The translations under genes were made by a program, and so were the position numbers. Positions 10,672-21,012 of a DNA stretch of 35,272 bases are shown here, piece after piece. Origin of the DNA: a virus. The stretch covers positions 1 to 35,272 of IMG/VR virus record IMGVR_UViG_3300009155_000130, one strand, 5' to 3'. The notes below the pieces were generated by a model. It did no database searches. It was not told the DNA's origin and was given only the letters and a program-made list of their open reading frames with translations. How positions within the stretch are numbered: position 1 is the stretch's first letter; the number at the start of each line of letters is the position of its first letter.

Positions 10672-10722
10672 TGTAGATCCTCTTTCTAATTGACCTGAGC
10701 TCCGCCTTGAAGCCTAGTCCTT

Positions 10723-11109
10723 TCATTCCATATTAAGTTGTACATCATCTGACTCCACGTCAGAACTATCGTTTAGCCAATCATCATCATCTAGGAGGGT
10801 AAGGAAGTTGTTATCAATCATCCAATCCATTACAGCCTCGTCCATTTGATCTGCCCCGAACTCCAGGGTAAAATCGGAGGGCGGGTTTTCCCAAAGTTTA
10901 TCCCATATAACATCTAAGGTAACTCCAGTACTAACTACATACTCAGAGCCCTCAGTAATAAATTCATGAGACTGATACTTGTCTCTAATTAAATCCCATG
11001 CCCATACCCATATTAATGACATGGCTACATCAACGCTATTTAAGGTATTGACAATTTGGTCCAATTGCATTTTAACTTTTTGGCCTCTGTCATATTGTAT
11101 ATCATCCAC
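10723..11109 (-). CDS. Hypothetical acidic protein
   Basis: 128 aa, N-terminal half helical with a Trp-rich stretch (LIWVWAWDLI), C-terminus very acidic (LDDDDWLNDSSDVESDD), like DNA mimics or proteins that bind basic partners. Overlaps the upstream gene by 8 nt. Leader contains AACGAAAGGA (within the upstream gene's 3' end). Confidence 0.65.
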   Translation of the reverse strand: MDDIQYDRGQKVKMQLDQIVNTLNSVDVAMSLIWVWAWDLIRDKYQSHEFITEGSEYVVSTGVTLDVIWDKLWENPPSDFTLEFGADQMDEAVMDWMIDNNFLTLLDDDDWLNDSSDVESDDVQLNME

Positions 11110-11362
11110 GAGATACAGTCCTTTCGTTTATGGCGAAGGCTAAATTATACGTCATAATATAGATTTCTGTCAAGGTATCCATACGTCCTGAAAGATATTT
11201 ATATTCAGGATTATCTTGTAATTGACCTACAAATTGAGATGTGTCTAATAGTTTAGTTTCACATTCATACATTAGATTCTTCATATGTCCATGCATGATG
11301 TCAGTACCTGATTCTCCCAGGTCAACTAATTTTTGTAGGTGGGGTTCCAAGATGTTATTCAT
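11102..11362 (-). CDS. Hypothetical helical protein
   Basis: 86 aa from the ATG at 11362, 7 nt after AACGAAAGG; an in-frame ATG at 11368 is too close to that site. Mostly helical. First gene of a short operon under the NDp-type promoter at 11389-11411. Confidence 0.65.
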   Translation of the reverse strand: MNNILEPHLQKLVDLGESGTDIMHGHMKNLMYECETKLLDTSQFVGQLQDNPEYKYLSGRMDTLTEIYIMTYNLAFAINERTVSRG

Positions 11363-11388
11363 TATCATACCTTTCGTTAGAGTTATTC

Positions 11389-11411
11389 ATTATATCAGTC
11401 GCTACTGACAT
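11389..11411 (-). promoter_or_regulatory. RecA-NDp/PafBC-type promoter
   Basis: ATGTCAGTA-N8-TATAAT on the - strand. It fits the actinobacterial consensus tTGTCRGTG-N8-TAnnnT except for the last base of the box. It overlaps the 3' end of the upstream gene and drives 11362. Confidence 0.7.
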
Positions 11412-11655
11412 TTCCTGCTAATACTGGATTTTCTATATTAAACTTATCATACTTAAATGTCATATACAGGTGTGCATGACACTTCTTATGATAAAGCTTT
11501 TTGTGTTTCTTCATATCTCCCGCTTTTATGGCGGTGGAACAAAAGGCACAGAAAGCAATCCTACCTAATCTATCCAATGACCATATACCTAATTGACCAT
11601 TCTCTTCTAACATTTTAAGATTATAGGCTTTACGCCTTTGATCATATTTATTCAT
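11395..11655 (-). CDS. Zinc-finger-like protein
   Basis: 86 aa with CAFC, then HKKLYHKKCHAH, a Cys/His set compatible with a CxxC...HxxxxH/C finger. Basic N-terminus. Overlaps the upstream gene by 8 nt. Putative nucleic-acid binder. Confidence 0.6.
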   Translation of the reverse strand: MNKYDQRRKAYNLKMLEENGQLGIWSLDRLGRIAFCAFCSTAIKAGDMKKHKKLYHKKCHAHLYMTFKYDKFNIENPVLAGNVSSD

Positions 11656-11854
11656 TTGCTACCTCCAGGATATGGTTTAATGCAGCAATTTCTCCCTGTA
11701 TATATTCTTTTGGATATCCTCCAGCAAACTCTTCTCCCATTTGAGGAAACCTTAAAATTACTTCATGACCTTCAATTTGTTCCAGGTCTTGTTCAAGACT
11801 AATTAAATGAATCTTCATATATTCAATTAACTTATCCGTAGTATGTGTTCTCAT
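11648..11854 (-). CDS. Hypothetical small protein
   Basis: 68 aa; helix LIEYMKIHLISLEQDLEQIEG, then FAGGYPKEYIQGEIAALNHIL. GAAGGG precedes the ATG. It overlaps the upstream gene by 23 nt; a later in-frame ATG (11818) would remove the overlap but lacks a better ribosome binding site. Confidence 0.6.
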   Translation of the reverse strand: MRTHTTDKLIEYMKIHLISLEQDLEQIEGHEVILRFPQMGEEFAGGYPKEYIQGEIAALNHILEVANE

Positions 11855-11999
11855 CTATATACCCTTCTGCTAGTAGGCCTTCGAAGAAGTCCCATATGGT
11901 TAATAGACCTTGCTTAACATCAGGGTCGGAAGCGGAATCAATAGCAACAGTTAAACTATTACCAAAGTTTTGTATATCCTTATATGTATAACCTAACAT
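11832..11999 (-). CDS. Hypothetical small acidic protein
   Basis: 55 aa (MLGYTYKDIQNFGNSL...). The ATG overlaps the previous stop (TAATG) and has AGGAGAA upstream. Predicted helical. Not recognised. Confidence 0.6.
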   Translation of the reverse strand: MLGYTYKDIQNFGNSLTVAIDSASDPDVKQGLLTIWDFFEGLLAEGYIDENTYYG

Positions 12000-12238
12000 T
12001 ATTTCTCCTCATCATATTCAATATAATGTTCATCTGTAGATGTTAAATTATAATGTTTATTAAATCTACCTTTCAGGTAATTACTATCTACCCTATCAGC
12101 AATACACCAATCAGCATAGAATGTACCTTCATTTAGATTTTCATTCATCCAGTCATCTAGTAATTGTTCTGCAATTGCTTGCAGTTCTGCGTCAATTACC
12201 ATTTGATTCTCATTTTCAAGAAATGATACTTCTGCCAT
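11999..12238 (-). CDS. Hypothetical acidic protein
   Basis: 79 aa, acidic, predicted helix-rich N-terminal half (LQAIAEQLLDDWMNENL). AACGAAAGGA precedes the ATG. First gene of a four-gene overlapping operon under the NDp-type promoter at 12265. Confidence 0.65.
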   Translation of the reverse strand: MAEVSFLENENQMVIDAELQAIAEQLLDDWMNENLNEGTFYADWCIADRVDSNYLKGRFNKHYNLTSTDEHYIEYDEEK

Positions 12239-12261
12239 TTTAATCCTTTCGTTAGTATGGC

Positions 12262-12372
12262 TTAATTATATAACATGCCACTGACATTGTATATAGGATA
12301 TAGGTGTGTTCTACACCACATGATCAAAGCTTCAAAATCCTGGGAAATATATTTGACTTCCGTAAACAACAT
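12262..12372 (-). CDS. 36-aa ORF behind a structured leader
   Basis: MLFTEVKYISQDFEAL... is 36 aa with GGAGGG 6 nt before the ATG, the best Shine-Dalgarno in this stretch. Its 3' end overlaps the NDp-type promoter of the next operon. It follows the structured leader at 12373-12526, which may control it. Confidence 0.5.
   Translation of the reverse strand: MLFTEVKYISQDFEALIMWCRTHLYPIYNVSGMLYN
12265..12287 (-). promoter_or_regulatory. RecA-NDp/PafBC-type promoter
   Basis: ATGTCAGTG-N8-TATAAT on the - strand; matches the TGTCRGTG core and N8 spacing exactly. Drives the 12238 operon. Confidence 0.8.
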
Positions 12373-12526
12373 ATGCTACCCTCCGCTTTTGGGGGCAAAG
12401 CTAAACCCCCATGCTTAGAGTCACGGGGGTTAAGAGAAGGGCTGCTAGGACCTCAACGAAAGGAAAAACCTGCTTTACTTAGCATCTAGAGTAGATGCAC
12501 CATTCGTTTTAATAGGCACACGGCCT
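12373..12526 (-). ncRNA. Structured leader or sRNA carrying an anti-leader sequence
   Basis: About 150 nt downstream of an extended -10. In order along the RNA: a 5' hairpin (12529-12511, arms AATAGGC/GCCTATT), a second hairpin (12498-12482, GCATCTA/TAGATGC), TTTTTCCTTTCGTT (12468-12455), a 10-bp stem with CCCCC/GGGGG (12431-12404), and a competing GGGGG/CCCCC pair using 12391-12395. TTTTTCCTTTCGTT is the exact complement of the AACGAAAGGA leader that precedes most - strand genes in this block. This suggests an antisense RNA or a switchable leader for the 36-aa ORF. Transcription is inferred, not shown. Confidence 0.5.
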
Positions 12527-12532
12527 ATTAAT

Positions 12533-12541
12533 ATTATATCA
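12533..12541 (-). promoter_or_regulatory. Extended -10 (TGATATAAT) before the structured leader
   Basis: TGATATAAT on the - strand, 6-7 nt before the first hairpin, so the RNA would begin almost at the hairpin base. No convincing -35. Confidence 0.5.
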
Positions 12542-12543
12542 TA

Positions 12544-12951
12544 TTAAACGACTAGAATATTCTCCATTGCATACTTCTCACAGAATACTGAGAGGTCCAT
12601 AGTAAAGATTGCGTCATTGTTCATTCCTCGGACTTTATTATCCAAGTCATTGTGTGGGGCTTCCTCGTGAAGACTAAATGTCTGTTGCTTAAAATCAACG
12701 ATAGCAATCTTGTGCTCATTATCGCCAATTTCGTTTATATATAGTCCCCATCCAGTTTCCATATTCCATTCATCTGCAACCATTTGACTGATTGCGATAC
12801 GTGTTGCATATGAACCATCATTCCAACGAGGACGTGCCTTAATGACAGCGTCTGCTAGTTTGCCAAGCATATTGTGCCCAGCCCAGTGACCGTATAGCAC
12901 AATTGTGTTTCCATTAGGTTGGACGAATCCAAAGTTTGCTCTGTCTCCCAT
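12544..12951 (-). CDS. Hypothetical protein of the MGDRAN... type
   Basis: 135 aa starting MGDRANFGF, with LYGHWAGHNM, RWNDGSYATRI and ETGWGLYINEIGDNEH. I recognise this pattern as a recurrent uncharacterised phage protein: a small beta-rich protein with conserved HWxGH and GDNEH. No catalytic role is known to me. Last gene of a six-gene operon; the ATG overlaps the previous stop. Confidence 0.7.
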   Translation of the reverse strand: MGDRANFGFVQPNGNTIVLYGHWAGHNMLGKLADAVIKARPRWNDGSYATRIAISQMVADEWNMETGWGLYINEIGDNEHKIAIVDFKQQTFSLHEEAPHNDLDNKVRGMNNDAIFTMDLSVFCEKYAMENILVV

Positions 12952-13142
12952 TATATTCCCGCCTTTTCTAGTTGAGGTGTTACTTCCTTTTTATTTAATT
13001 CTACCATTTCATAGCCCCATTTGTCTAGAGCCTCTTTGTATTTATTGTAATGGTGGCCACAAAATGTCAGCTCGCCAGTCGTTCCTCTAACAAGGTGCAT
13101 TGCCTGAGCTGGACAAACATCACATTTAATCCATTCGCTCAT
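12951..13142 (-). CDS. Zinc-ribbon-like small protein
   Basis: 63 aa. CDVC (8-11) plus FCGHHY give a CxxC...CxHH metal site; the C-terminus is basic. ATGA overlap with the upstream gene and TAATG overlap with the downstream one. Confidence 0.65.
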   Translation of the reverse strand: MSEWIKCDVCPAQAMHLVRGTTGELTFCGHHYNKYKEALDKWGYEMVELNKKEVTPQLEKAGI

Positions 13143-13285
13143 ATCTTGTTACCTTCAATCATGTCAGATAGTTTATCTAATAAGAACCCGTCAATGTCAG
13201 AAATGTCAATTTCTCTTAGTTTATCAATGATCTCTTCACGAGCAAAATTATACCCGTCTTGAAATCCATCTCTGTAGTCTGACAT
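13139..13285 (-). CDS. Hypothetical small protein
   Basis: 48 aa (MSDYRDGFQDGYNFAREEI...), an acidic helical sequence. GGAGAAAATA precedes the ATG, which overlaps the preceding stop (TAATG). Not recognised. Confidence 0.6.
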   Translation of the reverse strand: MSDYRDGFQDGYNFAREEIIDKLREIDISDIDGFLLDKLSDMIEGNKI

Positions 13286-13500
13286 TATTTTCTCCTTGAG
13301 TATCCAGTTGGCTCGAATTGAGATAAATAAGTTTCTTTTAAATTATATTTATCACGAATGCGACTTACCTTCTCAATACTACCAGTTCCAATGTTGAAAG
13401 TCAATGAATCCATTTCTTGTGGATCCAATCCAGTTATGTCCGCTTCCCAGATAGCCCGCTTAAAGGCTACCTGGTTCGGAGCAGTAAGTTCAAAGTACAT
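13285..13500 (-). CDS. Hypothetical small protein
   Basis: 71 aa from the ATG at 13500, which overlaps the upstream stop (TAATG); an earlier in-frame ATG would lie within the upstream gene. N-terminus MYFELTAPNQVAFKRAIWEA, C-terminus basic (YSRRK). Not recognised. Confidence 0.6.
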   Translation of the reverse strand: MYFELTAPNQVAFKRAIWEADITGLDPQEMDSLTFNIGTGSIEKVSRIRDKYNLKETYLSQFEPTGYSRRK

Positions 13501-13979
13501 TAGTCCCAATCCACATTTGTATCTTCGATTGACCAATCATTTACTTCAACTTCGCTGCCATACGATGTTAATGAAAGTTCATCTCCGAGTTTGTAATGAG
13601 CATCAAAGTTATCAATCTCATCAAGTGGTACTTGAACTGTTACTTCAAAGGCAATGGTTCCAGTTACGGTAACTGTCTTTGATAATTCAAATCCAAACAG
13701 TTCTGCTATTTGTTGAAGCGCTTCTTCTTTTGTATAATTAGGATTATACAATTCAACTAGAAGTTCCTCTAACTCATTAACCTTAAGTTTAAGGCCATTG
13801 TATAAATCATCAGCACGGCGACCTTGTTCAAGGGCCCACTCTAAGTCAACTACTTTCTGAGTAATATATTCAGGTGCTTCAGGTGCTGCATAAGTTCCTG
13901 CAATCTTCTTGTAGGTTACAAGTAGATTAGAGTTATACTCGTGAGGTACTGACATTGATGTTTCTAGGTTGTCTAACAT
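13500..13979 (-). CDS. Hypothetical protein with coiled-coil centre
   Basis: 159 aa. Residues about 44-78 form a likely coiled coil (LEWALEQGRRADDLYNGLKL); the C-terminal half is beta-type and acidic (VPLDEIDNFDAHYKLGDEL). Coupled to the previous gene by TAATG, with AACGAAAGGA inside that gene's last codons. Not recognised. Confidence 0.65.
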   Translation of the reverse strand: MLDNLETSMSVPHEYNSNLLVTYKKIAGTYAAPEAPEYITQKVVDLEWALEQGRRADDLYNGLKLKVNELEELLVELYNPNYTKEEALQQIAELFGFELSKTVTVTGTIAFEVTVQVPLDEIDNFDAHYKLGDELSLTSYGSEVEVNDWSIEDTNVDWD

Positions 13980-14737
13980 TATATTCCTTTCGTTGTGGTA
14001 GTGGTTAAGTATACCTTATGGGTCTGACATTGCGCCATAGCCTCTTCGTCTCTCCAAGAGCCTTCTTTGCAAGATGAACAGAATTCCCCACATCCCTCTT
14101 CACAATAATCTATTGTGTCATAGGATTGGCAGGCATAGCACATATTGGTATATTCTAGATTCTCTTTAACTTCACCACGGACAATCTCATATTCGCCACC
14201 CCAACCTGTCTCTTCCTCAAATTCAAGGGTTAGTAGAGAGTTAGGAACAAGATTACTTAGTTTAGTTAAGATAGTTACAGCAGGTGACCAAGCAGTATTA
14301 TATTTATATACTAGCCAGTTATCATCACCTTTTGATTCATATTCAAGCAACTCAGTATCAGGATACTCATCACCGTCTGATACGGCGACATCCCATTTAG
14401 TTCCCCAGTTAGTTGTATTCCATGAATACCAATCTTTCTGAGTCATAGCATGCGCTACCTCTTTAGCAAACCAATCAGGTGCACTCGTGTCTGTTCCTAG
14501 TCGTGTAGGTTGCTGAATATACTCTTGCATTGTAATACCGTCTTGTAATGGAGAATGTATATTCCAAAATGCAAATATAGGATTAGAATATGTAGATTCA
14601 GTTACTTCCATTTTATTAGTTTCCATGTTCCAACTATCGTGCCATACCATGAATGGCTCGTTAAGTTTATCTTTGATAAAATCTATCTCAGACTTTGGAC
14701 CTTGTATCGTTAATGTGTTATACACCCAGTTAGGCAT
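13979..14737 (-). CDS. YubB/Api92-like ferredoxin-fold protein with zinc ribbon
   Basis: 252 aa. MPNWVYNTLTIQGPKSEI is the typical start of the phage/plasmid YubB or Api92 family (ferredoxin-like fold, no known activity). A C-terminal Cys cluster follows: CYAC, CEEGCGEFCSSC and a final C/H. The start is set at 14737, 5 nt after AAAGGA; an in-frame ATG at 14785 lies in the promoter. First gene of the six-gene operon down to 12544. Confidence 0.7.
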   Translation of the reverse strand: MPNWVYNTLTIQGPKSEIDFIKDKLNEPFMVWHDSWNMETNKMEVTESTYSNPIFAFWNIHSPLQDGITMQEYIQQPTRLGTDTSAPDWFAKEVAHAMTQKDWYSWNTTNWGTKWDVAVSDGDEYPDTELLEYESKGDDNWLVYKYNTAWSPAVTILTKLSNLVPNSLLTLEFEEETGWGGEYEIVRGEVKENLEYTNMCYACQSYDTIDYCEEGCGEFCSSCKEGSWRDEEAMAQCQTHKVYLTTTTTKGI

Positions 14738-14762
14738 ATTATTCCTTTCGTTGAATAGCGCA

Positions 14763-14785
14763 ATTGTATCAGTGCCAACTGACAA
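14763..14785 (-). promoter_or_regulatory. RecA-NDp/PafBC-type promoter
   Basis: TTGTCAGTT-N8-TACAAT on the - strand, with TTGTAA directly upstream at the -35 position. Drives the 14737 operon. Confidence 0.75.
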
Positions 14786-14857
14786 TTACAAGGATTTTGG
14801 GGAAAATATTATGCGTGTCGTAAGAAAAAAATCCTGCCTTTAGCTTTGGGGGCGTTG

Positions 14858-14931
14858 CGACCCATAACGGACTTGAACCGTCGACCTCTACCGTGACAGG
14901 GTAGCGCTCTAACCAACTGAGCTAATGGGCC
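14858..14931 (-). tRNA. tRNA-Asp (GTC)
   Basis: 74 nt without CCA. Acceptor GGCCCAT/ATGGGTC with one G-U pair, discriminator G, D-arm with AGCTCAGTTGGTTAGAGC, anticodon loop CTGTCAC (GTC) on a CTACC/GGTAG stem, T-arm GTTCAAGTC. The 3' genomic sequence is CAA, so the CCA must be added or repaired. It is 30 nt downstream of the DUF932 gene and probably processed from its transcript. Confidence 0.9.
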
Positions 14932-14936
14932 AATGG

Positions 14937-14956
14937 TGGGGCCCTTTCGGGCCCCA
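14937..14956 (-). terminator. Strong hairpin between DUF932 gene and tRNA-Asp
   Basis: Perfect TGGGGCCC/GGGCCCCA stem with a 4-nt loop. There is no U-run in the - strand direction, so it may be a processing or 3'-end-protecting structure rather than a terminator. Confidence 0.55.
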
Positions 14957-14961
14957 TTTAT

Positions 14962-15969
14962 TTAGGCTAACGCTTTAACTGCTTTAAGAATTTTATTCTT
15001 CTCTGCAGTTAGTATTGGATCAAATCCACTTGCACCAGCATTTAGCGATTCAGTATTACCAGTACGGGCGGTACGGTAATAATCTAAACGCTCAGTCAAT
15101 GCATTGAACGCACCCCAAGCAGTACCTTTAATTGTGTTATTAGTAGGTGAGTTATGATAAAGGTCATCAATTAGAACAACCTTATTCTCCCACTTCTTTA
15201 AAGCGCCCTTAACATCTGCTTCAGGCTTTGGATATAGATTGCGAATCAAATCCGAAAATTGCTTATCGGTAACTGATTGCTTGAATAATTCTTCCGCTTC
15301 CTTTTGGAATGCATCTGCATATGCAAATGTTAATCCCAATGCTTGACGGGCTTGCACAATTCTGCCTTCAGCAGTTTGTGTATGACGAATCTTGAATGAT
15401 TGCTTAGCGCCCTTCATTGCAAGATTAAGAGTGTTTTGGCATACAACACGAACGGGTGTGATTGCTGCTTGAACTGCAACTGAACCGTCGTGAGATGTCC
15501 ATACAATTAGATATAACTTAGTTCTATCGTTAATACCTTGTGGGTCTAATACGATTTCACGTGGAATATCTAATGAGCCAAATACAACTTTGCCCTTTTT
15601 AATTGAGCCAGCAGATTCCCATTTTGCAGCATCATTGTCCAGAACGTTATCAGCAAATGCAAATAACTCTTCATTCTGAACGGTTTTGTAACGCTTGCCA
15701 ACAACTGATAAAACATCAGTGCCTTGATCAAACGGGTTATCACGAATCACATAGAAATTATCTGATGTATTTCTCCATGTGCTTGGGATATGATCTGCAA
15801 CATCCGACAAGCGGACATTCCAGTTATTTAACTTTGCTTCTTCAAGCATTGTTGCGGTAGTTACATTTTCATCTTGAGCGAAAATGCGATTTGCAAGATT
15901 GTGCCAAGCAGGTGCACCACGCAATGCAAATGCTACTTGACCATCTTGCTCTTCGAGATTATGAGCCAT
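14962..15969 (-). CDS. DUF932 family protein
   Basis: 335 aa. Phage/plasmid DUF932 family (TIGR03299-like): AWHNLANRIFAQ near the N-terminus, NTSDNFYVIRDN, VVGKRYKTVQNEELFAFAD, TPVRVVCQNTLNLA, and a C-terminal NALTERLDYYRTAR. Family function is unknown; members are often early and abundant. Start at 15969 with AACGAAAGGA upstream; an in-frame ATG at 16020 is part of the promoter. Transcribed alone with tRNA-Asp from the promoter at 15998. Confidence 0.85.
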   Translation of the reverse strand: MAHNLEEQDGQVAFALRGAPAWHNLANRIFAQDENVTTATMLEEAKLNNWNVRLSDVADHIPSTWRNTSDNFYVIRDNPFDQGTDVLSVVGKRYKTVQNEELFAFADNVLDNDAAKWESAGSIKKGKVVFGSLDIPREIVLDPQGINDRTKLYLIVWTSHDGSVAVQAAITPVRVVCQNTLNLAMKGAKQSFKIRHTQTAEGRIVQARQALGLTFAYADAFQKEAEELFKQSVTDKQFSDLIRNLYPKPEADVKGALKKWENKVVLIDDLYHNSPTNNTIKGTAWGAFNALTERLDYYRTARTGNTESLNAGASGFDPILTAEKNKILKAVKALA

Positions 15970-15997
15970 TTTATCCTTTCGTTTGTTTGTTAGGTTT

Positions 15998-16020
15998 ATT
16001 ATAACAGGGGGCACTGACAT
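15998..16020 (-). promoter_or_regulatory. RecA-NDp/PafBC-type promoter
   Basis: ATGTCAGTG-N8-TATAAT on the - strand, with TAGACA directly upstream as a possible -35. Drives the DUF932 gene. Confidence 0.8.
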
Positions 16021-16052
16021 TGTCTATCTTATTTGACATAAATTTTCGGGGG

Positions 16053-16084
16053 TTTTCCACAGGATGCCGTAACGCTGTGGATAA
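16053..16084. other. Inverted pair of DnaA-box-like sites
   Basis: TTTTCCACA (16053-16061) and TGTGGATAA (16076-16084, inverse of the consensus box TTATCCACA), 14 nt apart. They can also form a CCACAG/CTGTGG hairpin. Situated upstream of the DUF932 promoter. Confidence 0.5.
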
Positions 16085-16111
16085 GCCTTCAAGCTTGGGC
16101 GCAGGGGAAGA

Positions 16112-16137
16112 TGGGGCAGGCAGTGGGTACCGCCCCA
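16112..16137 (-). terminator. Hairpin after the 16142-16354 gene
   Basis: TGGGGC/GCCCCA arms with a 14-nt loop, 4 nt after the stop. Only a weak pyrimidine tract follows. Confidence 0.4.
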
Positions 16138-16141
16138 AGAT

Positions 16142-16354
16142 TTAGATTGAGTTATGGATTTCTTCTGGAAAGAATGCAGCAAATACTTTTTTGTTGTCTT
16201 GTGTATCAACAACATATGCTTTAACATTGCCTTCAAATTTGTTTAAATTAGGTTTAACCAGTTTAGTTAATGCTTCACGATTGTAACTGTTTGCAGAATA
16301 AATTGTTAGATCATGAGCTTTATTAGCATCATAGATTTCTACACGATACCGCAT
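16142..16354 (-). CDS. Hypothetical small protein
   Basis: 70 aa, alternating beta strands and one helix (MRYRVEIYDANKAHDLTIYS, NREALTKLVKPNL). Monocistronic, between hairpins, with AACAAAGGAA before the ATG. Similar in architecture to the 19075 gene (a compact alpha/beta protein), but I see no sequence relation. Confidence 0.6.
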   Translation of the reverse strand: MRYRVEIYDANKAHDLTIYSANSYNREALTKLVKPNLNKFEGNVKAYVVDTQDNKKVFAAFFPEEIHNSI

Positions 16355-16381
16355 TGTGTTCCTTTGTTAGTAGGAATAAAA

Positions 16382-16410
16382 ATTATACCATAAGGGGTGG
16401 GTGTTGTCTA
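16382..16410 (-). promoter_or_regulatory. Sigma70-type promoter inside a hairpin
   Basis: On the - strand TAGACA (16410-16405), 17 nt, TATAAT (16387-16382) with a TGG extension. The -35 lies in the loop of the upstream hairpin. Confidence 0.7.
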
Positions 16411-16431
16411 TAACCCACGCACCCACCCTTA
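16391..16431 (-). terminator. Terminator-like hairpin after the 16443-16865 gene
   Basis: TAAGGGGTGGGTG (16391-16403) pairs with CACCCACCCTTA (16420-16431), 12 bp with one bulged G. The loop holds the -35 of the next promoter. Confidence 0.6.
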
Positions 16432-16442
16432 TGATTATCTAA

Positions 16443-16865
16443 TTAAAGATAACGAGCAATAGCGTTGTATGTGGAAGCATTTACAGTTTCCTCATCGGTC
16501 ATTTTAAGAATACGAATAGCATTTTCCATCTCATCTTTCATCTCACGATAAGAGTGCTGATGTAGTTGCTCGTAGTCCTTAGTTGGCTCGGCAGGAAAAT
16601 CTTTCTCATCAACGATTATATCAAAATCAACATTGAGAGTTTTGTTCCAGTTGCGATAGTTGGTGCGTAGGTTTTCTGATTTAGTAAAATTAGCAATAGC
16701 CCACTTGCCAATTTCTTTACGCCACTTCTCTAAAGCCTTTTGGTATTTGGCTTCGTTTTCGTCTTGCTTTGTGTAATCAGCCTCTAGTTTGGCTAATCTT
16801 GCTTCTAGGGCTTTGATAACCTTAGTTGTTGCGATTTTTACCTGTATTGCTTTGCCTCTTGCCAT
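16443..16865 (-). CDS. Coiled-coil protein
   Basis: 140 aa. Residues 12-58 are a charged coiled coil (VIKALEARLAKLEADYTKQD). The C-terminal part is helical. AACGAAAGG lies about 8 nt upstream. Second gene after 16898 under the 17062 promoter. Not recognised. Confidence 0.65.
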   Translation of the reverse strand: MARGKAIQVKIATTKVIKALEARLAKLEADYTKQDENEAKYQKALEKWRKEIGKWAIANFTKSENLRTNYRNWNKTLNVDFDIIVDEKDFPAEPTKDYEQLHQHSYREMKDEMENAIRILKMTDEETVNASTYNAIARYL

Positions 16866-16897
16866 TTGTATTGCCTTTCGTTAGGTGGGTTGGTTTG

Positions 16898-17038
16898 TTA
16901 TGCTTTAACGCTTGTCCAGCGTTCTGTTCCATTTACATCAAGCAGAATACGATTAACTCCGCTTGGGTGGTTATCTATTGCTTTGATAACTCCAGTAATA
17001 CCACTTGTAGTGGTTGTGTATGTTGTTCCGATTTCCAT
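16898..17038 (-). CDS. Hypothetical small beta-type protein
   Basis: 46 aa (MEIGTTYTTTTSGITGVI...), likely a small beta barrel or SH3-like: GTTYTTTTSGITGVIKAID and RILLDVNGTERWTSV. AACGAAAGGAAACAA precedes the ATG. Supported by the exact NDp-type promoter 24 nt upstream. Confidence 0.65.
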   Translation of the reverse strand: MEIGTTYTTTTSGITGVIKAIDNHPSGVNRILLDVNGTERWTSVKA

Positions 17039-17061
17039 TTGTTTCCTTTCGTTAGGGGTTT

Positions 17062-17084
17062 ATTATAGCACCAGCCACCGACAA
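17062..17084 (-). promoter_or_regulatory. RecA-NDp/PafBC-type promoter (exact consensus)
   Basis: TTGTCGGTG-N8-TATAAT on the - strand, full match to tTGTCRGTG-N8-TAnnnT. It abuts the stop of the upstream gene (17085). Drives 17038 and 16865. Confidence 0.85.
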
Positions 17085-17354
17085 TTAGAAGTCGGTTTCA
17101 GGTAAAAACGCTTGTAAATGATGAGCCTCTATAATCGCATAAGCGGGGGCTTCAGGCTTGCCTTTCCACAATATTCCTTCAGGCAGTTTAATTAACTGAT
17201 TAAGTTCATCAGCATAATAAGCATCAATAGCATCAATACATGGTGCTACCATAGATGATGGAACGGGAGGGTAATGATTACCCCGTAGATGAATTAGAAT
17301 TGCTTGGTCTAAGTCAAAACTTTCTGCTAGGTCTAGTGCTGTGTTATATCCCAT
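17085..17354 (-). CDS. Hypothetical protein
   Basis: 89 aa, with LIHLRGNHYPPVPSSMV and AYAIIEAHHLQAFL; conserved-looking His/Pro motifs, but I cannot name the family. AACGAAAGGAAAAC precedes the ATG and matches 13 nt of the anti-leader at 12455-12468. Monocistronic. Confidence 0.65.
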   Translation of the reverse strand: MGYNTALDLAESFDLDQAILIHLRGNHYPPVPSSMVAPCIDAIDAYYADELNQLIKLPEGILWKGKPEAPAYAIIEAHHLQAFLPETDF

Positions 17355-17377
17355 TGTTTTCCTTTCGTTAGATTGGA

Positions 17378-17400
17378 ATTATAGCAGACTTAACTGACAT
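17378..17400 (-). promoter_or_regulatory. RecA-NDp/PafBC-type promoter
   Basis: ATGTCAGTT-N8-TATAAT on the - strand. Drives 17354. Confidence 0.8.
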
Positions 17401-17428
17401 TTTTTAAGACACGCCCGTATTTTCCAGG

Positions 17429-17444
17429 GTGATTTGTATCACAC
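17429..17444. promoter_or_regulatory. CRP/GlxR-like site
   Basis: GGTGA-TTTGTA-TCACA, one mismatch from TGTGA-N6-TCACA, about 30 bp upstream of the 17378 promoter and flanked by GACACGCC copies (17409, 17453). Confidence 0.5.
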
Positions 17445-17485
17445 TCTTAACGACACGCCCGACCCCGCAGCTTTGTGGGCGCCTT

Positions 17486-17614
17486 TTAATAATCATTAGT
17501 CCCGTCTCCATCAACATCAAATCTTTTAAACGCAACATATGAAAAAATTATGAATGGGGCCACTAGTACCAACCCCAATAGGGCCCCAAAAACTTGTCCA
17601 AAGAATAACGCCAT
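17486..17614 (-). CDS. Small membrane protein with DxDxDG loop
   Basis: 42 aa: hydrophobic helix (about 3-28), then KRFDVDGDGTNDY. The DVDGDGTND stretch resembles an EF-hand/dockerin calcium loop. The ATG follows the GP88 gene stop directly (TAAATG). Confidence 0.55.
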   Translation of the reverse strand: MALFFGQVFGALLGLVLVAPFIIFSYVAFKRFDVDGDGTNDY

Positions 17615-18367
17615 TTATTTTTTACTCGCAGAAAATCTTATATCAGCTTTTCCATAAACACACAATCCACACGACACGCATGCGCTGCCACTAGTAGAAA
17701 TTAACGGAATGCTTTTATTATTTTCAGGACATTTAGCGCCAGGCTTACCAATTAATTCTTTCATAGTATTTTCGGTAACAGCAAAGGTTTTACCTAAATA
17801 AGCCAATCTAATTTTAGTACCAGTCTTGCGTAGATCATGCGCTATATCTTTATTCTCATCATCCGTTGAATAATAAAGAGATAAGTTTTCAATACCGTCT
17901 AGGATGAGCGCTGCAGACTTAACTCGTGTATACACCCAAAATTGAATATCGGTATTGTTTAAAATAACATATTGCCATGCACGTGCATAGGTATCATTAA
18001 AGAAATCTCCGTCCCAATGAATACGGAATAATAACTTAGCATTTTTCTTTTCACAATCTTTTCTAAAATCATTAATCATATTTTCTATTAGATCCACCAT
18101 AGTAGGCTCGTCGGCGTCCTTAAGTAAATTCCAATTGTGAATGAGCACGTCTCTAACGCCTTTATATACCTTTTCTAACTTACCCGCATAGCATACGCTT
18201 TCGCATATGCTAGTAGCGCCAGGGCATGAGAATGCCTTACCCGCAGGCAGGCCGAAAGTATTAGCAATGGCAGAAGTCTTGCCATTTTTAGATACAAGGT
18301 TAGTAACCTTGCGATCATTAGATCTTTTTAACATAAGTGGAATTGTATCAGCTACGTCTGACATCAT
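17615..18367 (-). CDS. GP88 family protein (mycobacteriophage gp88-like)
   Basis: 250 aa. The Cys motif CPGATSICESVCYAGKL (about 48-64) with the following RDVLIHNWNLLKD is typical of the phage GP88 family, with more Cys near the C-terminus (CPENN, CVSCGLC). A metal or Fe-S cluster is likely, but no function is established. The ATG overlaps the upstream stop (ATGA). A second possible start at 18334 lies 7 nt after a TACAAT of an NDp-like box, which would give 239 aa and a leaderless mRNA. Confidence 0.75.
   Translation of the reverse strand: MMSDVADTIPLMLKRSNDRKVTNLVSKNGKTSAIANTFGLPAGKAFSCPGATSICESVCYAGKLEKVYKGVRDVLIHNWNLLKDADEPTMVDLIENMINDFRKDCEKKNAKLLFRIHWDGDFFNDTYARAWQYVILNNTDIQFWVYTRVKSAALILDGIENLSLYYSTDDENKDIAHDLRKTGTKIRLAYLGKTFAVTENTMKELIGKPGAKCPENNKSIPLISTSGSACVSCGLCVYGKADIRFSASKK
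18342..18364 (-). promoter_or_regulatory. Possible internal NDp-type promoter of the GP88 gene
   Basis: ATGTCAGAC-N8-TACAAT on the - strand, inside the first codons of the longer GP88 reading; 7 nt lead to an in-frame ATG (18334). GTG of the consensus is GAC. Confidence 0.4.
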
Positions 18368-18519
18368 AGGTCCCCCATTTCTGCATCAGCCATTCTTGAC
18401 ATGGCCCAATCTTGCGCTAGATCACGATCATACACGGCCATGCCTTCGCTAGAATAGCCACGGGCACAAATTGTGCAAATAGAATAGTTAGTACAGTAGC
18501 ATGAGTTAATATCGTTCAT
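18364..18519 (-). CDS. Small Cys-rich protein
   Basis: 51 aa. CYC (7-9) and CTIC (15-18) form a compact CxC...CxxC zinc site; the C-terminus is acidic and helical. ACGAAAGG lies upstream. ATGA overlap with the GP88 gene. Confidence 0.6.
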   Translation of the reverse strand: MNDINSCYCTNYSICTICARGYSSEGMAVYDRDLAQDWAMSRMADAEMGDL

Positions 18520-18547
18520 GAGTTGACCTTTCGTTGGGTGGATAAGA

Positions 18548-18570
18548 ATTATAACAGAGGCCTACGACAT
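18548..18570 (-). promoter_or_regulatory. RecA-NDp/PafBC-type promoter
   Basis: ATGTCGTAG-N8-TATAAT on the - strand; core TGTCG kept, GTG changed to TAG. Drives 18519, the GP88 gene and 17614. Confidence 0.65.
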
Positions 18571-18611
18571 TACCTAATCGACACGCCACAAAATCCCCTG
18601 GATTTTGTGCA

Positions 18612-18627
18612 TGTGTCTTAAATCACA
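18612..18627. promoter_or_regulatory. CRP/GlxR-like site
   Basis: TGTGT-CTTAAA-TCACA, one mismatch from consensus. The identical 16-mer occurs at 19792. Confidence 0.5.
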
Positions 18628-18631
18628 AAAT

Positions 18632-18655
18632 GCCCCCACAAGAACCTGTGGGCGC
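18632..18655 (-). terminator. Terminator hairpin after the 18687 gene
   Basis: GCCCCCACA (18632-18640) pairs with TGTGGGCGC (18647-18655), 8 of 9 bp. On the - strand it is followed by ATTTTG. A near-identical hairpin lies at 19812-19834. Confidence 0.55.
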
Positions 18656-18686
18656 AGCTGGCGACTTTGTCAAGACGCCACGCCGT

Positions 18687-18878
18687 TTATTTAGAATTAA
18701 ATTGCGGAATACGATAACCGCTTGCGCTATAAAATTTGTTAGCGTCAAACTTAGGATTATCTTTCGCAAACATTAAAGCAAAATCCACAACTACTTTAGA
18801 AAATAAAGCAGGGTGAATTTTATCTGAAACATATTTCATAATTTCAGCAGTAGCAATATAATCTTTACGGGTCATCAT
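18687..18878 (-). CDS. Hypothetical small protein
   Basis: 63 aa, helical N-terminal two-thirds (MMTRKDYIATAEIMKYVSDK). The start overlaps the upstream stop; a second ATG directly follows the first. Last of a three-gene operon. Confidence 0.6.
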   Translation of the reverse strand: MMTRKDYIATAEIMKYVSDKIHPALFSKVVVDFALMFAKDNPKFDANKFYSASGYRIPQFNSK

Positions 18879-19075
18879 TTCTGCGACACCAATCCAATCC
18901 GATTAAAGTTTTTAGTATACATTTTGCCATTTGGCAAAGATAAATTATATGTTGCGAATTCATTAGCAAATCCAACATCATAACATTTTGCGAAAGCCTC
19001 AAAGGCTTGTAATGCGTCAGCGAATTTGTGTGTATATTCTAATTCGCCATCATAGTAAGTATCTAGTCTATACAT
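18875..19075 (-). CDS. Hypothetical small protein
   Basis: 66 aa from the ATG at 19075 (TAATG overlap with the previous stop). MYRLDTYYDGELEYTHKFADAL suggests beta strands then a helix, and the tail MYTKNFNRIG is basic. An upstream in-frame codon at 19108 lies within the previous gene and is rejected. Confidence 0.6.
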   Translation of the reverse strand: MYRLDTYYDGELEYTHKFADALQAFEAFAKCYDVGFANEFATYNLSLPNGKMYTKNFNRIGLVSQK

Positions 19076-19206
19076 TAGATACCCCACATTTCTAGAGCGC
19101 AATCGCAACTCTCTACATCATAATTATTTTCATCGCCCCAAAATATGAAGCCAGCACCGCCACACTCATCACAAGCGACCCCGATTATTTCTGCTAGATT
19201 TCCCAT
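19075..19206 (-). CDS. Small zinc-finger protein (CDECGGAG)
   Basis: 43 aa. CDECGGAG at 12-19 is a DnaJ-type CxxCxGxG repeat; CDC near the C-terminus supplies further ligands. AACTACGAAAGGAAAAC precedes the ATG. First gene of its operon under an exact NDp-type promoter. Confidence 0.6.
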   Translation of the reverse strand: MGNLAEIIGVACDECGGAGFIFWGDENNYDVESCDCALEMWGI

Positions 19207-19239
19207 TTATAGTTTTCCTTTCGTAGTTTGTTAATTGTA

Positions 19240-19262
19240 ATTATAGCCTAAGCCACCGACAA
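19240..19262 (-). promoter_or_regulatory. RecA-NDp/PafBC-type promoter (exact consensus)
   Basis: TTGTCGGTG-N8-TATAAT on the - strand. Drives the 19206-18687 operon. Confidence 0.85.
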
Positions 19263-19279
19263 AGTGGGGAGGACACGCC

Positions 19280-19402
19280 CTAAAGCGCACCCTCATTAAA
19301 TAACCCGATTTCTAAATTTAGTAATTCATCAGGGGTGGCTTCGGATAAATCTACCCACCCAGCACCTTGTTCATCAAGGCGAAATATCTCAATATATCCC
19401 AT
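19280..19402 (-). CDS. Hypothetical small protein
   Basis: 40 aa (MGYIEIFRLDEQGAGWVDLS...), acidic, with a beta then helix layout. It starts 2 nt after the previous stop. The stop touches a GACACGCC copy at 19272. Confidence 0.55.
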   Translation of the reverse strand: MGYIEIFRLDEQGAGWVDLSEATPDELLNLEIGLFNEGAL

Positions 19403-19404
19403 TA

Positions 19405-19599
19405 TTATTCACCTACCTTAACCGCAATTGTGCGATATTTATTTTTTAGAGTATGAGCAGAATAAATTTCTACCAAATACGCTTCGGCATTTTCATACCA
19501 AACATTAGATTTCTCTGCTGAGATAATTTCCCCAGTTAAAGAATTAGAGCGATAAGTTTTGCCGATTAGCAAATCTTGTATTGTGTATAAGTTAGCCAT
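19405..19599 (-). CDS. Hypothetical small protein
   Basis: 64 aa from the ATG at 19599; the upstream in-frame TTG at 19629 is part of the -10 region. MANLYTIQDLLIGKTYRS,  a beta-rich fold. AACGAAAGGA lies 11 nt before the ATG, longer than usual. Pairs with 19402 in a two-gene operon. Confidence 0.6.
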   Translation of the reverse strand: MANLYTIQDLLIGKTYRSNSLTGEIISAEKSNVWYENAEAYLVEIYSAHTLKNKYRTIAVKVGE

Positions 19600-19628
19600 T
19601 GTTAGCCACTTCCTTTCGTTATACCGCA

Positions 19629-19651
19629 ATTATAGCGGAAGCCACCGACAA
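19629..19651 (-). promoter_or_regulatory. RecA-NDp/PafBC-type promoter (exact consensus)
   Basis: TTGTCGGTG-N8-TATAAT on the - strand. Drives 19599 and 19402. Confidence 0.85.
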
Positions 19652-19698
19652 TTTCATATTACTTTCCAGTAATTCCACATTTTGAGACGCTCAAGTCG

Positions 19699-19714
19699 TG
19701 TGTTCTTAATCACA
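19699..19714. promoter_or_regulatory. CRP/GlxR-like site
   Basis: TGTGT-TCTTAA-TCACA, one mismatch from consensus, 48 bp upstream of the 19629 promoter. Confidence 0.5.
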
Positions 19715-19728
19715 TTTAGCCTGTGGAC

Positions 19729-19770
19729 GACACGCCCGACACGCCACGACACGCCCGAAAGTTATCCACA
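19729..19770. other. Origin-like cluster: three GACACGCC repeats and a DnaA box
   Basis: GACACGCC at 19729, 19738 and 19748, spaced 9-10 bp and all in one orientation, then the consensus DnaA box TTATCCACA (19762-19770) and a T-rich stretch. The arrangement resembles small iteron origins. No replication initiator gene is recognised nearby. Confidence 0.45.
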
Positions 19771-19791
19771 GATTTCAGGGCTTTTTTTAAA

Positions 19792-19807
19792 TGTGTCTTA
19801 AATCACA
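19792..19807. promoter_or_regulatory. CRP/GlxR-like site
   Basis: TGTGT-CTTAAA-TCACA, identical to the site at 18612, just beyond the origin-like cluster. Confidence 0.5.
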
Positions 19808-19811
19808 TTTT

Positions 19812-19834
19812 GCCCCCACAGCTTTTGTGGGCGC
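19812..19834. terminator. Hairpin after the 19867 gene
   Basis: GCCCCCACA (19812-19820) with TGTGGGCGC (19826-19834), the same arms as at 18632. On the - strand it is followed by AAAA, so its terminator activity in that direction is doubtful. Confidence 0.45.
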
Positions 19835-19866
19835 TTCCGCTTTTTGTCAAACCGACACGCCGTTAT

Positions 19867-19998
19867 TTATTTTATTTTTTTACCAAATTTATTTAGTAAA
19901 ATTTCTTCAACCATTTTTAATTGTATTTCGGTTAGGTGATCTAACTCAACCGAATTTTTAAATTGGTTAGCTAACTTTTCTGCGGGATTTTCCGTCAT
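19867..19998 (-). CDS. Hypothetical small helical protein
   Basis: 43 aa (MTENPAEKLANQFKNS...), one long amphipathic helix ending KKIK. ATGA overlap with the preceding gene. Last of a five-gene operon. Confidence 0.55.
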   Translation of the reverse strand: MTENPAEKLANQFKNSVELDHLTEIQLKMVEEILLNKFGKKIK

Positions 19999-20189
19999 TC
20001 GTTTTCCATTTCTGCTAAATAATCTTCATGCTCGATTAGTCCGATAGAAAATGCGATAGGGTCGCAACATTCTAAGATTTCGCTGGCGGTAAAAGTAGAA
20101 TAACCGATTTTGTAAGTAGGATAAGTGTCGTCTAGTAATTGGCAGAAACTCTCCTTTAATTCTATATCCTTTTCTAATTTAGATTTCAT
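19995..20189 (-). CDS. Hypothetical small acidic protein
   Basis: 64 aa with adjacent cysteines (LECCDP). ATGA overlaps at both ends, and AGGAGA precedes the ATG. Not recognised. Confidence 0.6.
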   Translation of the reverse strand: MKSKLEKDIELKESFCQLLDDTYPTYKIGYSTFTASEILECCDPIAFSIGLIEHEDYLAEMENE

Positions 20190-20338
20190 TTATCTCTCCT
20201 AATTAGTATAATGGAATAAACAAAAGCAATAGAGCCAACTAGTAGCCATGTCGGGATATCTATACCGACACCATTAGGCCATAGCCCGTTAATATATAGC
20301 GAAAAGTATTCGCTGTCTAATAATAATTCTAAGTTCAT
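20186..20338 (-). CDS. Small membrane protein
   Basis: 50 aa: a polar N-terminus (MNLELLLDSEYFS), one hydrophobic helix (about 28-45) and an RRDK end, so a single-pass protein with a cytoplasmic C-terminus. Coupled by TAATG and ATGA. Confidence 0.55.
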   Translation of the reverse strand: MNLELLLDSEYFSLYINGLWPNGVGIDIPTWLLVGSIAFVYSIILIRRDK

Positions 20339-20511
20339 TATTCGTATTCCTCCCAATCTAGTGTTAAGCCCTTTTCGATTACCTCGTCCATGCTAATCAT
20401 GTCCTCATCAAATAGGCTTTCCTCGTTATGCTTGTCTAACTTTTCTGCCTCATCTAAGTAGGCATAAGCGTCTGCTATGTCTGCTTGAATAGTGTCCCAT
20501 TTAGTCATCAT
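20338..20511 (-). CDS. Hypothetical acidic helical protein
   Basis: 57 aa (MMTKWDTIQADIADAY...), very acidic. The first ATG overlaps the upstream stop (TAATG). Not recognised. Confidence 0.6.
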   Translation of the reverse strand: MMTKWDTIQADIADAYAYLDEAEKLDKHNEESLFDEDMISMDEVIEKGLTLDWEEYE

Positions 20512-20672
20512 TACTTATTTACCTCTACCTCTCTAATGTTGTAAGTAAAACCTTTACCAAGTTTATTTAACTCAGCCATTACTGCTAATAAGTCATCAGC
20601 ACTTTCAGCCTTGTTTCCTACTGATAGCAAACTGCCACCTTGCCATAGTGAGTATGTTATTGTTATTTTCAT
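20511..20672 (-). CDS. Hypothetical small protein
   Basis: 53 aa from the ATG at 20672, preceded by AACGAAAGAAGGA. MKITITYSLWQGGSLLS with a following helix, a compact alpha/beta protein. An in-frame ATG at 20738 sits in the promoter and is rejected. First of five genes. Confidence 0.6.
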   Translation of the reverse strand: MKITITYSLWQGGSLLSVGNKAESADDLLAVMAELNKLGKGFTYNIREVEVNK

Positions 20673-20709
20673 TTTCTGTCCTTCTTTCGTTAGGTTGTTC
20701 ATTAAGGTA

Positions 20710-20732
20710 AGACTATCATTAGCGTCCGACAT
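20710..20732 (-). promoter_or_regulatory. RecA-NDp/PafBC-type promoter, degenerate -10
   Basis: ATGTCGGAC-N8-TAGTCT on the - strand with TTGATA directly upstream at -35. Drives the 20672-19867 operon. Confidence 0.6.
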
Positions 20733-20759
20733 TATCAAGCCGACACGCTAGGGGTAGAG

Positions 20760-20775
20760 TGTGAGTTGCCTCACA
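20760..20775. promoter_or_regulatory. CRP/GlxR-like site (exact)
   Basis: TGTGA-GTTGCC-TCACA matches the consensus fully. It overlaps the stop codon of 20771-20878 and lies 27 bp upstream of the 20710 promoter. Confidence 0.6.
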
Positions 20776-20878
20776 TCTCCTTTTCATTAGCGACATGGTA
20801 GGCAAGTGTTATGCCCTCACCATATTCAGACACTAGGTCATCATAGACCTCATCTAGATAGTTAAGGTAATCGTTCAT
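20771..20878 (-). CDS. Small acidic protein, first gene of the - strand block
   Basis: 35 aa (MNDYLNYLDEVYDDLVSEYG...), one acidic amphipathic helix. AACGAAAGGAAATAA precedes the ATG. Its own promoter at 20990 and a leader of about 100 nt with direct repeats suggest special control. Confidence 0.6.
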   Translation of the reverse strand: MNDYLNYLDEVYDDLVSEYGEGITLAYHVANEKEM

Positions 20879-20905
20879 TTTATTTCCTTTCGTTAGGTTG
20901 AGCGG

Positions 20906-20949
20906 TTATTTGCTAGGCTCACCCTTTCGGGATTATTTGCTAGGCTCAC
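20906..20949 (-). repeat. Direct repeat pair in the 20878 leader
   Basis: TTATTTGCTAGGCTCAC occurs at 20906-20922 and 20933-20949, separated by a CCC-TTTC-GGG mini-hairpin. It lies inside the predicted 5' leader, perhaps an RNA-binding site. Confidence 0.55.
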
Positions 20950-20989
20950 GCTCTAATTCTTTATTCTTTATTTAATTTGTTATACTATA

Positions 20990-21012
20990 ATCTTAACATG
21001 GGGGACTGACAT
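20990..21012 (-). promoter_or_regulatory. RecA-NDp/PafBC-type promoter, weak -10
   Basis: ATGTCAGTC-N8-TAAGAT on the - strand. It is the outermost promoter of the - strand block, upstream of 20878. Confidence 0.6.

Follow-up and report, generated by a model that had tools for sequence, protein, structure and literature searches.

The 6C RNA of actinobacteria, LhrC and RsaE are host sRNAs that use C/U-rich anti-Shine-Dalgarno loops against several mRNAs. Among phages, the C4 RNA of P1 and P7 reportedly acts on the ant mRNA, which comes from the same transcription unit. C4 has loops that are complementary to the region of a phage mRNA that governs its translation (PMC12197685). Other phage-encoded RNAs also work by pairing and control mRNAs of the phage or its host, examples being VpdS of VP882, PreS of lambda and the antisense RNAs OOP and sar (PMC12197685). 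These are Hfq-dependent or cis-antisense and mostly have one or a few targets, and no regulon with a shared leader is described in that paper.

The DNA analyzed here, referred to as the window, is the stretch of 35,272 nucleotides from position 1 to 35,272 of record IMGVR_UViG_3300009155_000130, and all coordinates refer to it. It contains a structured RNA gene with a loop, CUUUCGUU, that is complementary to a leader, AACGAAAG, shared by about a dozen of the phage's own genes. The nearest phage case is C4, likewise an antisense RNA with loops against a region of mRNA that governs translation. However, the RNA in the window has a separate promoter and terminator, forms a three-way junction, would be directed at about a dozen leaders and lacks an Rfam match; the C4 covariance model itself gave no match, either at the gathering threshold or at an E of 5. 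With 6C, LhrC and RsaE it has in common that the loop of a single RNA would pair with the Shine-Dalgarno sequences of several mRNAs, but those RNAs turn generic C-rich loops on unrelated host mRNAs, whereas here the loop is found together with a dedicated leader tag (AAC plus Shine-Dalgarno) in a block of phage genes. Regulatory RNAs usually find their targets through patchwork matches. A single RNA facing the same tag on some dozen mRNAs of its own phage would be the translational counterpart of a regulon, and would account for the AAC retained in the leaders, which is not required for ribosome binding. No earlier description of the RNA was found in the literature searched, which was largely outside subscription journals.

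Location and Organization of the RNA Gene

The RNA gene lies on the - strand, in the gap between the - strand genes at 12544-12951 and 11999-12238. A sequence-only reading of the window had placed a candidate antisense segment here, set among hairpins and preceded by TGATATAAT, and both the hairpins and this upstream element are present. The locus is organized as follows:

12544..12951 (- strand): neighbor gene PHROG_31860, directly upstream of the RNA; conserved, and used to find relatives
12533..12541 (- strand): extended -10 promoter of the RNA gene, TGATATAAT, with TATAAT at 12533-12538, predicted from the sequence and its relatives
12509..12531 (- strand): 5' hairpin TTAATAGGCC..GCCTATTAA at the predicted transcript start, found in many relatives, not all
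12434..12508 (- strand): conserved three-way-junction core with P1 (8 pairs), P2, linker UAAGUAAA and P3, from the match to model R1 and covariation
12482..12498 (- strand): P2 hairpin GCATCTA-CTC-TAGATGC, with 99% of cells paired across relatives
12474..12481 (- strand): junction linker UAAGUAAA, nearly invariant in this phage group
12444..12473 (- strand): P3 hairpin with the anti-leader loop, from fold prediction and covariation
12455..12462 (- strand): invariant loop CUUUCGUU, the complement of AACGAAAG, identical in 132 of 137 distinct RNAs
12397..12431 (- strand): terminator hairpin AACCCCC...GGGGGTT followed by TTTAGCTTT, the likely 3' end of the RNA

PHROG_31860 has relatives at 69 loci in IMG/VR, and the RNA follows the gene in 68 of them; the 69th contig ends at the gene. 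The RNA is now known from more than 100 viral contigs, and its carriers are a family of large phages, mostly from freshwater DNA. The order of elements is an extended -10, often an upstream hairpin, the core (GGUGC..CUA..AG..GCUAAGUAAAGCAG..CUUUCGUU..CUAGCAGCC) and usually an intrinsic terminator, which follows the junction in most relatives. Upstream of the RNA, TATAAT with at most one mismatch is found in 85 of 98 distinct relatives, preceded by TGn in 64 of those 85. The U tract of the terminator is weak in the window copy and reads TTTTT in many relatives. By these signals the element would be an independent transcription unit with its own promoter and terminator, producing a separate small RNA, some 130 nt long, that runs from 12531 to about 12397 on the - strand.

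The RNA is situated about 160 nt before the gene at 11999-12238, on the same strand, and might be thought to be a cis-acting structured 5' leader of that gene, for instance an attenuator. However, the terminator of the relatives comes right after the junction, a TGTCRG-TATAAT promoter of its own precedes the next gene, and the gene found downstream varies among relatives. The RNA thus does not appear to be continuous with a downstream mRNA in the manner of a cis-regulatory leader or riboswitch. It also lacks an Rfam match, and such a role is extremely improbable. Rfam searches at the gathering threshold and at a permissive E of 5 yielded no family for the RNA, only two tRNAs being matched. A tmRNA or tRNA-like RNA was considered because the neighbor-gene homologue in phage Karimac is followed by a tmRNA, and was rejected when neither ARAGORN nor Rfam gave a match. 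A scan of genome contigs gave nine scattered matches in unrelated bacteria, which were taken as chance, and no indication of a copy encoded by a host.

A Covarying Three-Way Junction

Covariance model R1, built from 16 sequences, matches the window at 12434-12508 (-) with 59.7 bits (E = 5e-11). The fold is a three-way junction made from P1, P2 with a small apical stem, a UAAnUAA linker and P3. In the seed alignment, 84.8% of cells pair, compared to 72.1% in shuffles, with 52 double changes versus 22.8. For 35 diverse sequences, in an alignment fitted to the model beforehand, 91.8% of cells pair versus 69.0% in shuffles and there are 170 double changes versus 58; slid controls fall to 29-50%. 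The covariation, which 0 of 500 shuffles reach, supports the predicted three-way-junction fold.

In the window copy, the P1 strands GAATGG and CCCTTC include a T-C mismatch not seen in close relatives. Its 5' strand is like that of contigs L095/L020 and its 3' strand like that of L002, as if recombined. Six contigs found with the first DNA pattern (L078, L079, L092, L094, L096, L101) are coding-like and fail the covariance model, and further chance matches were discarded (L193, L207, L210, L258; L334-L336, L339). Self-pairing of the loop with ACGAAU of P1 was also considered, but is not conserved.

The Anti-Leader Loop and Its Leaders

The + strand of the window reads exactly AACGAAAGGAAAAA at 12455-12468, as the sequence-only reading had it, and a - strand transcript would carry TTTTTCCTTTCGTT. 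With up to three mismatches, this 14-mer has 23 matches in the window compared to 7.3 +/- 2.7 expected, and 0 of 100 shuffles reach 23. The set of 137 distinct copies of the RNA, from IMG/VR and the window, was completed by scans that left the P3 loop free. Near-variants of the loop occur in none; the five that lack it have unrelated loops (CUGGGGGUGUU in L182, ACA in L173, UUAG in L260, CCUCGAAA in L211 and GUAAUU in L223). The chance of a given 8-mer in a 130-nt RNA is about 0.2%, and with invariance across 132 copies a chance occurrence of the loop is out of the question. Its UUCGUU bases are predicted to be mostly unpaired; the first loop bases, CC, pair inside P3 in many copies, leaving only UUCGUU freely open. 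Leader complementarity across the whole RNA peaks at the loop (13 of 21 upstream regions), which has the appearance of a conserved, accessible seed for putative target mRNAs.

The window has 13 exact copies of AACGAAAGG. One copy is on the + strand at 12455 and is the RNA itself, while the other 12 are on the - strand before - strand genes. Fourteen leaders had been claimed; the count that stands is these 12 plus one near match, TACGAAAGG:

11120..11128 (- strand): AACGAAAGG leader of gene 10723-11109
11370..11378 (- strand): AACGAAAGG leader of gene 11102-11368
12245..12253 (- strand): AACGAAAGG leader of gene 11999-12238
13986..13994 (- strand): AACGAAAGG leader of gene 13500-13979
14744..14752 (- strand): AACGAAAGG leader of the gene from 14737 (252 aa, weak DUF1281_C match)
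15975..15983 (- strand): AACGAAAGG leader of the DUF932 gene from near 15966
16874..16882 (- strand): AACGAAAGG leader of gene 16443-16865
17045..17053 (- strand): AACGAAAGG leader of gene 16898-17038
17361..17369 (- strand): AACGAAAGG leader of gene 17085-17354
18527..18535 (- strand): AACGAAAGG leader of gene 18364-18519
19212..19225 (- strand): near match TACGAAAGG, leader of gene 19075-19206
19612..19620 (- strand): AACGAAAGG leader of the gene from near 19602
20886..20894 (- strand): AACGAAAGG leader of the gene from 20878

The start codon mostly follows 7-9 nt after AACGAAAG, and in about a dozen genes the Shine-Dalgarno sequence lies partly within the leader, in agreement with the earlier proposal that the pairing covers it. 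The pairings of 12-13 nt proposed for some of the genes are real, for example at 17354 (AACGAAAGGAAAA) and 14737 (TCAACGAAAGGAA). Loop and leader are predicted to form duplexes of 8-13 bp with energies of up to about -17 to -20 kcal/mol, while the 16S tail reaches about -10 with the same leader. A comparison of duplex energies, called for at the outset, separates the leaders (-14.9 to -19.8 kcal/mol) from the + strand genes (-2.6 to -12.6); the 1% level for random 35-mers is -14.6 kcal/mol. Most of the CUUUCGUU-loop genomes searched have 5-14 copies of AACGAAAGG per record, with 2-4 in G014, G020 and G026. The copies are on the strand of the RNA, mostly within about 10 kb of it and nearly all in one block. 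A copy on the opposite strand is usually the loop itself, and a reversed-pattern control gives 0-3.

The sequence CCUUUC is common to the 3' end of actinobacterial 16S rRNA, and it is shared by the loop; GAAAGG, in turn, is a common Shine-Dalgarno sequence. The CUUUCGUU loop could accordingly be a mimic of the 16S tail that acts on ribosome binding sites generally, including those of host mRNAs, leading to host shut-off. However, the invariant part of the loop includes CGUU, which has no match to the 16S tail, and the AAC of the leader is outside the Shine-Dalgarno sequence and accompanies the loop, being missing where the loop is missing. Since most of these phages moreover have AACGAAAGG nowhere but in the block surrounding the RNA, general mimicry is considered highly improbable.

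Two Classes of Promoter

A TATAAT with at most one mismatch is found no more than 40 nt upstream of the leader in 637 of 686 cases, compared to 31% of random places. The distance between the two is mostly 14-22 nt and variable, which argues against a fixed promoter element. Because the leader sits just downstream of the -10, transcripts should begin shortly before AACG. A TGTCRG box is found 9-13 nt before the -10, with 528 and 599 instances on the strand of the RNA and 6 and 11 on the opposite strand, making 1,127 boxed promoters on one strand versus 17 on the other. No such box precedes the promoter of the RNA in any of 98 distinct relatives. The RNA is thus predicted to be transcribed from a plain extended -10 and the genes from boxed promoters, so that the two could be switched on at different times. 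The TGTCRG-TATAAT arrangement is reminiscent of the middle (MotA) promoters of T4 and suggests a phage activator or an altered RNA polymerase. In the window (10700-21000, -) and in relatives, the box is too close to TATAAT for a normal -35.

A duplex at the leader would be near the predicted start of the transcript and could shield the mRNA from 5' attack, and the promoters of the RNA and of the leader genes belong to different classes. Both points would suit a function of the opposite sense, in which the RNA binds the mRNA 5' end and stabilizes or activates it, or the leader mRNAs are a sponge, drawing the RNA away from some other target. However, a duplex over the Shine-Dalgarno sequence normally blocks initiation, and a second conserved complementary target was not found. 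A function of this kind is therefore unlikely.

Association of Loop and Leader

Three relatives (L182, L173 and L260) have the same RNA with another loop and the same class of promoter (41 cases), and AACGAAAG follows in 2 of these 41. In CUUUCGUU-loop phages it follows the boxed promoter in 645 of 1,127 cases, a difference with a Fisher p of 2.6e-12, calculated from cases that are not independent. The leaders of the other-loop phages look like plain Shine-Dalgarno sequences without AACG, for example AAGAAAGGA in L182. A changed leader facing an unchanged loop would have spoken against the sequence-only reading; in L182, L173 and L260, where the leader had changed, the loop had changed too. 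Since the new loops are not complementary to the new leaders, the pattern is one of joint loss or gain and not of compensatory swapping. The anticipated covariation of leader and antisense was found only in the sense that the two change together, not as a new loop that matches a new leader. The proposal of a phage small RNA with a loop meant for the shared leader is well supported by comparison, through the RNA's predicted promoter, its covarying fold, its invariant loop and the joint absence of loop and leader from sister phages.

The CUUUCGUU phages have several loop types, CCUUUCGUU (types A and B) versus ACUUUCGUU or UCUUUCGUU (types C and D). The second Shine-Dalgarno position is G in 94% of 302 cases in which the loop has C opposite, compared to 72% of 349 with A or U (p = 1.4e-14), and the next leader base is A in 69% versus 37% across the two loop-type groups. 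In control GAAAG leaders without AACG from the same phages, G is found in 38% versus 35% (p = 0.37). On a tree of two neighboring proteins, the loop class changed seven times; of 97 phages, 85 have a leader that agrees with the loop. This amounts to only five independent contrasts, of which on average 1.9 agree, 0.1 disagree and 3 are undecided, which is not significant and leaves the phylogenetic test powerless. The evidence that the leader may be kept for the sake of the loop is good but not final.

In other-loop phages, several boxed promoters (L282-L283, L284-L285 and L288) are followed by a hairpin leader, such as GTTGATAAAGGTTATCAAC, and then AAAGAAAGG, perhaps another control at the level of the leader.

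Related RNAs in Streptomyces Phages

Streptomyces phages of the Stanwilliamsviridae (Karimac, Peebs, Forrest and others) encode an RNA with a similar gene neighborhood and the same three-way junction, including P1, P2, P3 and a conserved linker, which is UUAAAUA or UUAAUUA in most of them. The scaffold is kept downstream of the same DUF932-type gene and is found in more than 80 isolated phages. Karimac, Peebs, Bmoc and EGole match with E from 6e-8 to 7e-4, their relatives being included in model R2, and Forrest matches from outside the model (E = 9.5e-5). In the most diverged blastn-matched phages, the match shrinks to the RNA alone. No description of the Stanwilliamsviridae RNA was found in the literature searched. 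Although absent from Rfam, the scaffold is open to experiment through these cultured phages.

The P3 loop of the Streptomyces RNA (AAGGUCGG, AUGGUCGG or AGUCGGC) is conserved. However, it is not complementary to the phages' own leaders, nor is any segment of the RNA enriched for such complements. Because this loop is conserved yet non-complementary, the scaffold serves another purpose as well, probably an older one. The anti-leader loop is thus particular to the mostly aquatic clade and seems to have been added to a scaffold that already existed. A broader possibility, put forward tentatively, is that of a widespread actinophage scaffold whose seed loop can be exchanged: within a single large clade, a lock-and-key match between loop and leader tag would place a gene block under one RNA, and related phages would use other loops for other targets.

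The Streptomyces homologue is located in the terminal repeat, close to the end of the genome and beside a repeated non-coding block, with a loop unrelated to the leaders. This location would be compatible with a structural RNA or one for replication or packaging, such as an origin transcript, whose complementarity to leaders is incidental; RNA-based origins do occur in mycobacterial prophages (PMC7157519). However, only phages that have the leader carry CUUUCGUU as the loop, and it is precisely the loop at which the complementarity of the RNA peaks, making such a role highly improbable.

The annotated Karimac tmRNA follows gene 191 (L152, Karimac 97336-98030), the homologue of the neighbor gene. 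The aquatic phages have the small RNA at this site, and Karimac's own copy of the RNA is near the genome ends. A pseudoknot between a Streptomyces loop AAGG and a CCUU tail is unsupported in Karimac, where the loop is AUGG. A match in Rhodococcus phage Weasels2 (E = 0.86) was not accepted, and none was found in the Nocardia, Gordonia, Mycobacterium, Microbacterium and Arthrobacter phages tested.

The lake actinophage DSL-LC01 has a relative of the neighbor gene and a shared leader of its own:

24000-43400 of OQ999401.1 (L151; one strand): DSL-LC01 leader block with 16 copies of CGACGAAAGG

Neither model found a copy of the RNA in DSL-LC01, and outside genes there is no site complementary to the leader. 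A seemingly compensatory antisense site, TTTCGTCGT at 114328, is inside a long gene. A shared leader thus need not imply this RNA, and DSL-LC01 is a useful natural comparison as a phage with a shared leader and no matching RNA.

A Model for Pairing in Trans

The RNA is probably a phage sRNA that acts in trans by pairing with a leader dedicated to it, and the likely outcome is repression of translation. The mRNAs of the leader genes probably begin a few nucleotides before the leader, near their own promoters. The CUUUCGUU loop would nucleate a duplex of 8-13 bp with the AACGAAAG leaders, which would cover the Shine-Dalgarno sequence and compete with 16S rRNA. Once the RNA accumulates, the whole gene set would be repressed as a unit or brought to one shared level, with the AAC before GAAAGG serving as the tag that marks phage mRNAs of this set. 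If so, a plain AAGAAAGG leader is expected to be less responsive than a AACGAAAGG leader.

The gene, fold, loop, leader set and co-occurrence come from comparison among phages, while expression of the RNA, its pairing in trans and the repression are inferred. That translation is silenced or timed, and that the block is early, was conjecture in the sequence-only reading, and pairing as such could also activate or protect. Nevertheless, the duplex is predicted to be stronger than the pairing with 16S rRNA and covers the Shine-Dalgarno sequence, making repression likelier than activation.

Adjoining Non-Coding Elements

Just after the RNA, at about 12330-12395 (-), is a second conserved non-coding block, GCCC..GAGGG..TTTACGGAnGTCAA..TTTCCnGGA. 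Streptomyces phages have repeated copies of similar units (CCCTTTACGAnnGGG..AATTCCCGGA) toward the end of the genome, and the block may be an origin or a packaging site. A conserved inverted repeat, TGTGGTGTnnAACACACC, lies at about 12290-12325 in the window, after the RNA and before the promoter that follows; it is present in many relatives and represents a possible operator.
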